Assembly (NCBI GenBank): GCA_017630395.1
Contig: JAGBVI010000070.1
Span: 50,382-114,381, forward strand
DNA: 64,000 bases
Direction of reading: 5' to 3'
From: Paludibacteraceae bacterium
GTDB lineage: Bacteria > Bacteroidota > Bacteroidia > Bacteroidales > Paludibacteraceae
Positions 60,001-62,594 of the stretch are shown here, piece after piece. The notes beneath the pieces were generated by a model, which saw nothing but the letters and a program-made list of their open reading frames with translations, ran no database searches and was not told the origin of the DNA. Each line of letters opens with the position of its first letter. Position 1 is the first letter of the stretch. Position numbers and translations under genes: made by a program.

Positions 60001-60249
60001 GGTGTGCACATTGTTTTCGTATAACGAACCACCAATATCTGCCGTCAGTCGTGATATTACGCTTTCCACTTCCAACGAACTTATTTCTTGTTCAGCGTAA
60101 CGACTTCTTAGGTAAGCCTTCATATCGTCGCGAAGCAGTACATCACATAGTTCCTTATGAATCTCCTCGCCGTTTGTATATATGTAGCCCTCTTGTTGGA
60201 ACAAATCCATTATTGCCATTTCAAGAGTATGTTCGTTGAAGTGTGTCAT
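57073..60249 (-). CDS. hsdR: Type I restriction enzyme R subunit
   Basis: Motor and nuclease subunit that translocates and cuts unmodified DNA with HsdM and HsdS. The 1058 residues hold an N-terminal PD-(D/E)xK nuclease with Asp135 (RIPDGIV) and Glu149-Phe-Lys151 (VVLEFKSA). Helicase motifs follow: Walker A GATGCGKS (293-300), [19 protein letters not shown], and later [51 protein letters not shown]. A C-terminal helical region of about 280 residues ends the protein. It looks intact. Codon use is visibly more GC-rich than the housekeeping genes, suggesting acquisition. It starts five bases after the rhuM-like stop; hsdM is outside the window. Its first codons are duplicated twice upstream. Confidence 0.96.
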   Translation of the reverse strand: [1058 protein letters not shown]

Positions 60250-60254
60250 AGGCG

Positions 60255-61400
60255 TTAATCTTTTTTGTTAGACAATAATTCTTCTATCTCATCGTCAAAA
60301 TCTGACCTAAACAAACGGTCTTGTATAATACGATATTTTTCAAATTCTGATTCTGCAAACTTTTTGGCTTCTTCTGCCGAAACGCTCCCATTATCATTTA
60401 GTAATGGCAATTCGTCTATCATCAGAAATTTGTCAATGTACTTCGCCCAATCTTCCATTGTCATTGGGATATGGCGTTTTGCACGGTTTTCTGCCAAATC
60501 AAGAAAAGCATTGACAATTCTTCCTAAGCTATCCAGCTCTTTGCCATTCAGGTAGTTTTTAGCAATGGAAACATCTGTCTTGACAATCTTTCCTTTGGGA
60601 GCATTCTCCCAAGAAGTCAAACCCATGTGTTCTTTTTCTGCATTAGCACGTTTCTTAATCAGTTCTGCTGCCGTATTTCCATGGATGGCATAGTGTAGTT
60701 TGTTCTGTACTTTTGCAAAGAAAAGGTGTGTTGTCGGTGCATCTTTATTATAGTCGATGGCTGTAGCATAAATATCTGTCACCTTTTGATACATCTTGCG
60801 CTCACTCAAACGGATTTCACGTATTTCTGCCAACAGATGTTCAAAGTAGTCTATGGTCAGGAATGCTCCATTTTCCATACGCTTTTTATCAAGCACATAG
60901 CCTCGAATAGCAAACTGACGAAGTACAGCTGTTGCCCATTGACGGAATTGGGTTGCACGTGTAGTATTGACTCTATAGCCGACAGAGATAACGGCATCAA
61001 GATTATAGTATTTCGTCATATAATTCTTACCGTCTGCGGCAGTTGTTTCCATTTTGGAAATAACTGAATCCTCAATCAACTCACCATCCTCAAAGATATT
61101 CTTCAGATGTTTGCTAATAGCAGGTATTCCCACATCAAACAAGGTACCCATAGCCTTTTGCGTCAACCATAGAGTTTCGTTTTGATAGAACACTTCCACC
61201 CCGTTAGCCTGACTTTGTGCTTGAAAAATCAGGAATTCTGCCGTACTATTTCTAATGGTAAGACTCTGCGTTTGTGGAAGTTCCTCGTCTTTGAACCGCC
61301 ATTCACAACCGCAGCTAATGCAGTGATAAACGTCTCCAGTTTTCTCCACGTTTTGGGATTGGCACTTAGGGCAAAATAATATTTTGTTCTCTTCTGACAT
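60255..61400 (-). CDS. RhuM-family protein with N-terminal zinc ribbon
   Basis: Function unknown; named after the Salmonella island gene rhuM and often found inside type I restriction loci. The 381 residues start with a zinc ribbon (Cys10, Cys13, Cys27, Cys30: ILFCPKCQS, YHCISCGCEW). The RhuM core begins at about 60: VEVFYQNETLWLTQKAMGTLFDVGIPAISKHLKNIFEDGEL, which resembles a helix-turn-helix, then NYMTKYYNLDAVISVGYRVNTTRATQFRQWATAVLRQF and GYVLDKKRM. The zinc ribbon appears to be an added module. It lies five bases before hsdR and 12 bases after an hsdR-like mini-frame. Confidence 0.88.
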   Translation of the reverse strand: MSEENKILFCPKCQSQNVEKTGDVYHCISCGCEWRFKDEELPQTQSLTIRNSTAEFLIFQAQSQANGVEVFYQNETLWLTQKAMGTLFDVGIPAISKHLKNIFEDGELIEDSVISKMETTAADGKNYMTKYYNLDAVISVGYRVNTTRATQFRQWATAVLRQFAIRGYVLDKKRMENGAFLTIDYFEHLLAEIREIRLSERKMYQKVTDIYATAIDYNKDAPTTHLFFAKVQNKLHYAIHGNTAAELIKKRANAEKEHMGLTSWENAPKGKIVKTDVSIAKNYLNGKELDSLGRIVNAFLDLAENRAKRHIPMTMEDWAKYIDKFLMIDELPLLNDNGSVSAEEAKKFAESEFEKYRIIQDRLFRSDFDDEIEELLSNKKD

Positions 61401-61412
61401 AACAATTTCTTT

Positions 61413-61508
61413 TTAATAATTCTCGTCTAATAGGGAAACGAAATATGCTCCACAACCTTTCCCCTCAAATATTTCCATTTCGAGAGTATGTTCGTTGAAG
61501 TGAGGCAT
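61413..61508 (-). pseudogene. Short copy of the hsdR 5' end upstream of the rhuM-like gene
   Basis: An ATG-initiated 31-codon frame whose first residues, [12 protein letters not shown], copy the start of HsdR ([12 protein letters not shown]). At DNA level ACTTCAACGAACATACTC is identical in both. After about 15 codons the match is lost (EGKGCGAYF), and the frame stops 12 bases before the rhuM-like ATG. Either a relic left by recombination at the hsdR start or a small upstream frame. Confidence 0.75.
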
Positions 61509-61519
61509 GGGTCTATGAT

Positions 61520-62443
61520 TTATTTGTCAAATTTAGATGCGATTTCTTTATAAGTGATAGCTTTCTCCAAGAACCAGTTGTAGGCTTTGGGCCAACAATC
61601 ACGTTTCTTGGGATTGATATTAGTTGAGATGAATATGCGACATGCCTTCTTTGCCTCTCGCCATTCCACTTCGCTATTCAACATCGTAGAGATTTCATCT
61701 TTATGTATTTTGAAACGCTCAAACAATTCTTTGTCATCATTGATGTATATTTCTGTGCCGATGTTTTGCTTTTGAGTGTTAATGGTAAGACCTATATGAT
61801 ACGCAGAACTGCCAATACTCAAATCATACCAATGTTGGGGAGAAGCTTTACGTGAACGGAAATGATGTTTAAATGTATCATTATTACTCATTGCATCATT
61901 AAAGCCTGTCCAAAATTCAAGTTTCAGCAAATCAGTATTGGATAAACCTTCAATAGACTTCATTGTCTTAGTCCATTCATTGGGCTTTTCTACGATGTTG
62001 AAGCGTGGTGCTTTTTCTGAGTCTCCAATCTGCCACAACTCTATCTCCAATAAGAAGAAACCGATATTGCTGTCTGTATGTTGGTTCAGCCATTCTATTG
62101 CCTGACGATGTTCGTCACGTGCTCGCTTCACCACCCAGACAATCACCTCAGCACCTTTACCTGAGGCGTATGTAATCAGTTTGCCAAGATGGTCGTGATT
62201 GGTATCTTCCAATTGGTTCTCGATAATCACACGACGATTAGTCCCCACTTCTTTTGCGAAGACATCCACATTGAAACTTCCTACAGAAGATTCTCTTTCC
62301 TCCAGTTCCAATTCAATATCTATAGCATCACCCAGCAACGTGAGATTCTCTTCCTGCGCTAACCACTTTGTGAAGTCATTTGCCTCATGAGGCCATACCG
62401 ACCTTAAATCGGTAATTCTTATCATCTTGCCTAATTTATCCAT
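61520..62443 (-). CDS. DUF4268 protein, predicted PD-(D/E)xK nuclease-like
   Basis: Start chosen at ATG 62443 (307 residues). An in-frame ATG at 62518 lies inside the hsdR-like mini-frame and adds 25 unlikely residues. The N-terminal domain MIRITDLRSVWPHEANDFTKWL is typical of DUF4268 proteins. Residues about 45-110 hold FNVDVFAKE with Asp60, then VIIENQLEDTNHDHLGKLITYASG with Glu75-Asn-Gln77, a D-(E)xQ pattern seen in nuclease-like folds. The DUF4268 region proper (about 190-305) has FWTGFND, SIGSSAYHIGLTIN and WPKAYNWFLEKAI. Function unknown; its position suggests an accessory defence or regulatory role. Confidence 0.82.
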   Translation of the reverse strand: MDKLGKMIRITDLRSVWPHEANDFTKWLAQEENLTLLGDAIDIELELEERESSVGSFNVDVFAKEVGTNRRVIIENQLEDTNHDHLGKLITYASGKGAEVIVWVVKRARDEHRQAIEWLNQHTDSNIGFFLLEIELWQIGDSEKAPRFNIVEKPNEWTKTMKSIEGLSNTDLLKLEFWTGFNDAMSNNDTFKHHFRSRKASPQHWYDLSIGSSAYHIGLTINTQKQNIGTEIYINDDKELFERFKIHKDEISTMLNSEVEWREAKKACRIFISTNINPKKRDCWPKAYNWFLEKAITYKEIASKFDK

Positions 62444-62447
62444 TTTG

Positions 62448-62594
62448 TCAATTGTTTCGTTCTTTAAGCATATATTGCCAGTACTTGGTTCTCTGTTCCT
62501 TGTGTATCGTCTCGCCATTCACGTAGCTGTAGCCCTGTTGCTCAAACAGTTCCATGATGGCCATTTCTAAAGCGTGTTCGTTGAAGCTAGACAT
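62448..62594 (-). pseudogene. Longer copy of the hsdR 5' end upstream of the DUF4268 gene
   Basis: A 48-codon frame beginning MSSFNEHALEMAIMELFEQQ, then GYSYVNGETIHKE, against [13 protein letters not shown] in HsdR. Identity holds for about 33 codons, then stops (QRTKYWQYM). It ends TGA four bases before the DUF4268 ATG. It is more diverged from hsdR than the copy at 61413-61508, so it probably derives from another hsdR allele. No helicase or nuclease sequence follows. Confidence 0.8.

Follow-up and report, generated by a model that had tools for sequence, protein, structure and literature searches.

Probable scars of the hsdR start beside accessory genes of a Paludibacteraceae type I restriction operon suggest a landing place for candidate defence genes

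Why should the 5' end of one restriction gene occur three times in a single operon? In the 64,000-nucleotide stretch analyzed here (the window; positions 50,382 to 114,381 of contig JAGBVI010000070.1, assembly GCA_017630395.1, from a Paludibacteraceae bacterium), the start of hsdR is found at the complete gene and again before each of two accessory genes of the same type I restriction operon. Comparison with 64 other loci makes it likely that one of the three is the working hsdR start and that the other two are recombination scars, in an hsdS-hsdR interval that acts as a landing place and exchanges genes at such scars. The three starts are as follows:

57073..60249, minus strand: hsdR, complete, 1058 amino acids, with its 5' end repeated upstream (HSDR_N, SWI2_SNF2, T1R_D3-like and T1RH-like_C domains)
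61413..61508, minus strand: copy 2, an hsdR 5' scar in a 31-amino-acid frame, with hsdR homology at ~61508-61456 (profile E = 5.2e-6)
62448..62594, minus strand: copy 3, an hsdR 5' scar in a 48-amino-acid frame, with hsdR homology at 62594-62492 (profile E = 7.6e-26)

The original prediction had placed the three starts at these positions, with both short frames ending within 12 bases of the next gene, and this was confirmed: copy 3, which begins MSSFNEHALEM, stops 4 nucleotides before the ATG of a DUF4268 gene (62443), and copy 2 stops 12 nucleotides before the ATG of a rhuM-family gene (61400). The E values above were obtained by searching a profile of 56 hsdR starts against the 65 loci; homology to the profile covered 103 nucleotides in copy 3 and 53 in copy 2, and the best match to reversed sequence had E = 1.6. 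A whole-genome search with the 33 N-terminal hsdR residues returned only these three places at E ≤ 10, copy 2 weakly (E = 0.048). Chance resemblance of the copies to hsdR is ruled out by this search together with the profile search and its reversed control. The unequal divergence of the two copies, also part of the prediction, was confirmed: relative to the hsdR of the window, 29 of 102 nucleotides differ in copy 3 and 4 of 39 in copy 2. For copy 3, 35 of the 56 hsdR starts are closer than its own, which ranks 36th; for copy 2, its own hsdR ranks second. A piece similar to copy 2 precedes rhuM in locus L069.

The comparison loci came from an alignment of 12 N-termini, which led to 64 loci from named records. 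Because the hsdR start served as the query in collecting them, the frequency of scars among the 65 loci is no unbiased estimate, and L078, L093, and L095 entered the sample through the scar itself. Gene boundaries in the loci are those of mechanically called open reading frames (ORFs), and c-numbers denote clusters.

Comparison with related type I loci, which the original prediction had proposed, turned up empty sites, the clearest in L074, a contig from an uncultured Prevotellaceae. L074 matches the window at 98.1% identity over 1058 bp comprising the hsdS end, an mrr-like gene, the spacer, and the first 103 nucleotides of hsdR. Beyond the match, which ends at hsdR codon 35, L074 continues as an hsdR frame (955 amino acids, open to the contig end), whereas the window passes into the DUF4268 block. 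L074 is, on this alignment, the empty site for copy 3. Relative to the copy 3 ATG, the window and L074 differ at 1 position in 858 bp (-811 to +46) and then at 5 in the 52 bp from +47 through +98. The window shares its base with all three DUF4268-linked copies compared (L078, L060, and L047) at four of the five diagnostic sites and with L047 only at the fifth. Copy 3 looks mosaic: its first part resembles L074 and its second the DUF4268-linked copies found in three other genomes, a pattern that suggests a crossover near codon 15-16, at about 62550-62547. The scar-DUF4268 unit occurs in four loci, with right sides 88-93% identical and left sides without detectable similarity. Copy 3 was probably not left by a fresh insertion; rather, an L074-like locus seems to have received a ready-made copy-DUF4268 unit through a crossover within its hsdR start. 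The remaining features of the window locus are as follows:

60255..61400, minus strand: rhuM-family accessory gene, 381 amino acids, adjoining hsdR (Virulence_RhuM 5.3e-106; PADLOC PDC-S05)
61520..62443, minus strand: DUF4268 accessory gene, 307 amino acids (DUF4268 1.3e-28, 306 amino acids scanned; PADLOC PDC-S11 3.4e-118)
62547..62550, minus strand: putative crossover within copy 3, L074-like before it and of the DUF4268-linked type after it (from the mismatch map)
62654..63478, minus strand: mrr-like accessory gene, 274 amino acids, presumably an older resident of the operon (Mrr_cat 4.7e-11)
63491..64000, minus strand: 3' part of hsdS, cut by the contig end (Methylase_S 1.1e-8)

Minus-strand order is hsdS end, mrr-like gene, copy 3, DUF4268 gene, copy 2, rhuM, and complete hsdR. 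The operon is recognizable as type I from hsdR, with its nuclease N domain and helicase motor, and from the 3' part of hsdS; hsdM is not visible because the contig ends inside hsdS. Between hsdS and hsdR lie the candidate defence genes (DUF4268, RhuM, and mrr-like). PADLOC candidate-defence models match DUF4268 (PDC-S11) and RhuM (PDC-S05) strongly, and the PADLOC match of the mrr-like gene is weak. That gene, with the same spacer length, also precedes hsdR in L074.

The window rhuM is shared with L069 and L032, which are ~77% identical over rhuM and hsdR, and the window hsdR (57073-60249) is 85-87% identical to the hsdR of L036, L039, and L035 from the start of the gene on. Set against its rhuM relatives, the window hsdR may possibly reflect another exchange at the hsdR start.

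Are such pieces a general feature of these loci, and which part of hsdR do they preserve? Outside hsdR itself, nhmmer found 18 hsdR 5' pieces at E < 1e-5 in the 65 loci, including the two of the window. The 14 pieces in loci with a visible hsdR all lie upstream of it on the same strand, and the other four (two in L078 and one each in L093 and L095) are on contigs with no hsdR seen after them. The 65 loci, their hsdR masked, were also searched by tblastn with 56 complete HsdR proteins, and 14 matches were supported by at least 30 queries. All 14 were on the same strand, upstream of hsdR, and ended by residue 56; 13 started at residue 1-4 and the L047 match at residue 15. No internal or 3' hsdR piece was supported by 30 or more of the 56 queries in this masked search of the 65 loci. 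Random decay leaving any part of hsdR upstream is unsupported, since 5' ends were the only pieces with that much support. In L037 and L079, hsdR is reduced to longer 5' pieces, of ~163 and ~305 codons, respectively, and the next ~10 kb contain no remainder of the gene.

For 22 copies, the copy and up to 400 nucleotides upstream of it were compared with all loci. At least nine have a relative in which the same upstream sequence enters hsdR in the same register, and in at least three cases the fic-hsdR junction was interrupted, each time at another point (L078, L042, and L055, each compared with L062). Four weak copies (L061, L048, L055, and L072) were read by eye; those of L055 and L072 also have empty sites. 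The in-register empty sites and the L074 comparison bear out the earlier proposal that genes were stacked at the hsdR start and left pieces of hsdR behind. The proposal needs amending in that copy 3 probably did not arise by fresh insertion and in that hsdS 3' ends and the 5' ends of fic and DUF4268 genes were left as well.

As read by eye, a fic frame in L078 (L078:8773-9993) carries near its start the first hsdR codons (MSHF), joined in frame to KEGYL, the usual beginning of fic. It looks as if the insertion had taken over the hsdR start codon.

The hsdS ends were examined with a profile of 55 hsdS 3' ends. Eleven loci yielded 13 orphan hsdS tips in all, with E values of 4.6e-13 to 0.0056. 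Each tip lies in the hsdS-hsdR interval, on the strand of those two genes and close before an accessory gene; no match to reversed sequence was obtained at E < 2. These counts leave out seven matches judged to be the hsdS end of the locus itself (L063 -6149, L064 -2773, L051, L050, L079, L043, and L075) and two weak matches (window minus strand, E = 0.59; L087, E = 0.78). Composite scars, in which an hsdR start is followed by an hsdS tip, are present twice in L044 and once in L060. Remnants of the 5' ends of a fic gene (L060:5774-5983) and a DUF4268 gene (L052:2454-2636), each without the rest of the gene, also lie between accessory genes. As judged from these remnants, other genes of the interval are cut likewise, and the phenomenon is wider than hsdR.

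The interval from hsdS to hsdR is well populated. In the 52 loci with both borders there are 127 accessory ORFs of at least 100 amino acids, and 44 of the 52 have at least one. Pfam labels of selected accessory representatives include RloB with an AAA partner, Fic, YhcG/DUF1016, AbiH, Abi_alpha, NACHT, GmrSD, AIPR, Schlafen AlbA_2, KAP NTPase, and FRG; some representatives had no Pfam match. The identity of the HsdM cluster was confirmed with one member and that of the HsdS cluster with two, and HsdM was found by Pfam in L032 and L184. A scar marks 24 of the 83 accessory-to-accessory junctions (11 with hsdR only, 10 with hsdS only, and 3 with both), and all 24 are among the 51 junctions with a gap of at least 25 nucleotides. 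These counts are for 52 of the 65 loci, leaving out L078, L079, L093, L095, and loci without a recognized hsdS end; they include L060 -4562, seen by eye only at a junction that also has an hsdS tip, and L072 -1049, which scores at chance level and has an empty site.

Two stretches near accessory genes were observed alongside these. Eight loci (L047, L049, L050, L051, L053, L055, L060, and L077) share ~100 bp before RloA of the RloA/RloB block. Most of them carry within it TATATTTGC, which we take to be promoter-like, and the block may have its own promoter. Near cluster c6, the loci L037, L038, L048, L089, and L091 have short repeats of ~28-38 bp on both strands; the c6 member tested had no Pfam match.

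Similar scars were found beyond this hsdR family. An HSDR_N match at E ≤ 1e-10 was present in 154 of 247 genomes of the phylum, from which 60 hsdR regions of up to 8 kb each were picked by hand according to rank and contig quality, not content. Five of the 60 had an hsdR 5' piece upstream at E < 1e-3 (L177, L179, L184, L211, and L220), with L177 and L179 sharing one scar. In a control search, residues 101-200 of hsdR matched a single locus below E = 1e-3 (L182, twice within a glycine-rich stretch), versus five for residues 1-100. L187 (E = 0.001) was not counted, and matches with E of 0.003-0.05 were taken as chance (L190, L194, L197, L201, L208, and L214 for residues 1-100; L217 and L219 for residues 101-200). 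A rhuM gene of L184 is preceded by a 71-amino-acid frame made up of ~30 hsdR codons and then an hsdS tip that ends in LRDTLLPKLMSGEVRV. Scars of this composite type are also present in L177, where a NYN-domain gene follows, and in L179. Outside the five of 60, a second start-like match occurs in each of G807 (E = 7.8e-13) and G915 (E = 2.5e-12); it lies in a short open frame upstream of hsdR, with an accessory gene on either side. In L177, an IS200-like transposase gene (Y1_Tnp; L177:1602-2060) stands directly before the composite scar, and the gene at that place in L184 has no Pfam match.

How could hsdR starts and hsdS tips come to lie between accessory genes? One route is gradual erosion, in which two whole type I operons stood in tandem and the redundant hsdR-hsdM-hsdS between accessory genes decayed until the hsdR 5' and hsdS 3' tips remained. 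The composite scars run in the order that this route predicts (twice in L044, and in L060, L177, L179, and L184), and the pieces of L037 and L079 show that longer hsdR 5' ends without the rest of the gene exist. The window genome (G000) has four HSDR_N matches, which indicates that several restriction loci coexist there and could exchange parts. Set against erosion, no long hsdR remnant was found between accessory genes upstream of hsdR in the 65 loci at the support level used; the longest pieces upstream of an intact hsdR have 71 codons (L211) and 56 codons (L066 and L220). Erosion would yield the same scars as direct joining and differs from it only in the first step, so that it overlaps with the reading of the copies as recombination scars; as the account of that step we regard it as plausible, though somewhat improbable.

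The repeated use of one place, and the transposase gene before the L177 scar, might instead suggest a site-specific mobile element or integrase that inserts at the hsdR start. Such an enzyme would hardly leave what is seen: the hsdR pieces end at various points between about codons 7 and 56, the scars include hsdS 3' ends, and no recombinase occurs among the labelled accessory representatives, beside which unlabelled genes remain. We regard this explanation as very unlikely.

Do the scars also serve as places of exchange? In three sets of loci, homology changes partner at a scar. L052 and L053 share a c53-hsdS scar stretch of 683 bp at 99.4% identity and then no detectable similarity, and L035, L036, and L039 share a c12-hsdS scar stretch of ~480 bp at 90-92% and then none; the third set is the scar-DUF4268 unit of the four loci described above. 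These switches and the crossover that the mismatch map places within copy 3 both speak for homologous exchange at the repeated segments. The same junctions could in principle be assembly artefacts, made where metagenome assemblers joined strains at the conserved hsdR start; most of the 65 loci, L074 included, are metagenome-assembled, and the shared segment is conserved. That artefacts explain the scars is nevertheless very unlikely. The same scar junctions recur in separate assemblies, several scars are decayed, an hsdS scar is present in an isolate draft (L053), and the genomes of L177, L179, and L184, with their composite scars, are single contigs, which argues against assembly joins.

Might the short frames have a function of their own? 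As an alternative, the original prediction had suggested that they are kept as leaders for translational coupling with the gene that follows. The two window frames are open and stop close before the next ATG, the L060 copy before DUF4268 also ends close to an ATG, and all five changes between window copy 3 and L074 are synonymous, so that copy 3 alone gives no argument against a kept frame. Individual copies have nonsynonymous to synonymous changes of 0 to 5 (window copy 3) and 0 to 1 (L042 and L069). Over 15 in-register copies compared with their nearest hsdR, however, there were 81.5 nonsynonymous to 57.5 synonymous changes, as against 115 to 273 among hsdR starts (49 comparisons); the copy ratio includes divergence from before insertion and two strongly decayed copies (L067 and L044 -4153), and indicates relaxed constraint rather than a rate. 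Purifying selection was not seen over the 15 copies together. One copy each of L078, L044, and L067 has stops within the matched segment, the frame of the first L078 copy ends ~35 nucleotides before the ATG of a DUF4268 remnant, and the orphan hsdS tips have no gene start of their own. For the set as a whole, kept leaders are unsupported and appear quite unlikely.

Reading the copies as recombination scars, we consider it likely that the hsdS-hsdR stretch of the type I operon is a landing place for candidate defence genes. The right side of an arriving block would bring or restore an hsdR; its left side would be joined either within the opening codons of the resident hsdR or at the final codons of an hsdS, and a short piece of the old gene would remain. 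The first non-homologous junctions might form when one side is joined illegitimately, or when two operons fuse and the part between them is lost; the composite order of hsdR 5' end and hsdS 3' end fits both. The scars, like the real hsdS 3' and hsdR 5' borders, would then provide short homologous stretches where crossovers between operons of different species could exchange accessory genes, presumably by RecA-type homologous recombination at hsdS tips, hsdR tips, and scars. In the window, an hsdS-mrr-hsdR arrangement as in L074 would have crossed over in the hsdR start with a scar-DUF4268 locus, followed by scar-rhuM and then hsdR. The sequence comparisons document the scars and empty sites, the mosaic appearance of copy 3, and the changes of partner at scars, and we infer that the embedded genes act in defence.

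Several observations weigh against this proposal. Junctions free of scars make up 27 of the 51 with a gap of at least 25 nucleotides and 59 of the 83 overall. A permutation test of co-inheritance of hsdR with its neighbour gene in 39 loci gave no support (p = 0.13). At +47, +65, +68, and +71 of copy 3 the window base is also the commonest among other hsdR starts, so that base identities alone are no proof of transfer and the clustering of mismatches carries most weight; changes private to L074 could account for part of the mosaic pattern. A second cluster of 14 mismatches to L074 lies at -949 to -812 (hsdS end and mrr start). A simple random-breakpoint model would not predict pieces as short as those upstream of intact hsdR. 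The copies in L048, L055, and L072 were at chance level in the profile search and that in L061 had E = 0.074. Finally, given the prevalence of metagenome assemblies, a chimeric assembly could mimic a partner switch.

More broadly, the hsdS-hsdR interval across Bacteroidota may be an integrase-free immune cassette array, in which tips serve as homology sites, scars renew the site, and host recombination alone reshuffles defence genes between species; we find the case for this wider statement evenly balanced. If it is true, the succession in which immune genes were acquired could be read from the order of scars. Defence genes are known to cluster and to sit in other defence operons, and their route of entry is rarely seen. 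Scars and empty sites would be direct traces of single gain events, of their order, and of likely donors, with no need for a mobile element, and short hypothetical frames between defence genes may be debris.

The presence of defence genes between hsdS and hsdR is established. Accessory or defence genes inside type I operons include prrC in EcoprrI, DarTG2 in the RRDM island, and TgvAB in VPI-2 (PMC12255303, PMC11411939, PMC12707154), and the window resembles the parts described of these operons in having candidate defence genes inside the operon. DarTG2 lies between hsdS and hsdR, in a gap named as a potential recombination hotspot in the relevant passage (PMC12255303). In the passages on the prrC, DarTG2, and TgvAB operons there is nothing on scars of hsdR 5' or hsdS 3' ends, on the order of stacking, or on changes of partner at scars, and a full-text literature search that included PMC12629846, with most subscription papers and bioRxiv outside its coverage, returned no description of such scars. 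The similar scars in related bacteria suggest that immune genes are exchanged between restriction operons, and accumulate in them, through recombination at the operon edges.

Type I loci of Campylobacter jejuni likewise contain R-linked ORFs (rlo), variable genes linked to hsdR. In homology-facilitated illegitimate recombination, one side is joined by homology and the other without it, which would leave pieces of the kind found here; for these loci we infer the mechanism of the first junction. Integron gene-cassette arrays offer a further parallel, with cargo genes stacked serially at one place and a short repeated segment at their boundaries. Unlike an integron, the present loci have no integrase among the labelled gene families, in which no search with integrase or attC models was made, and the repeated segment at their boundaries is a piece of a coding gene with a varying end point.

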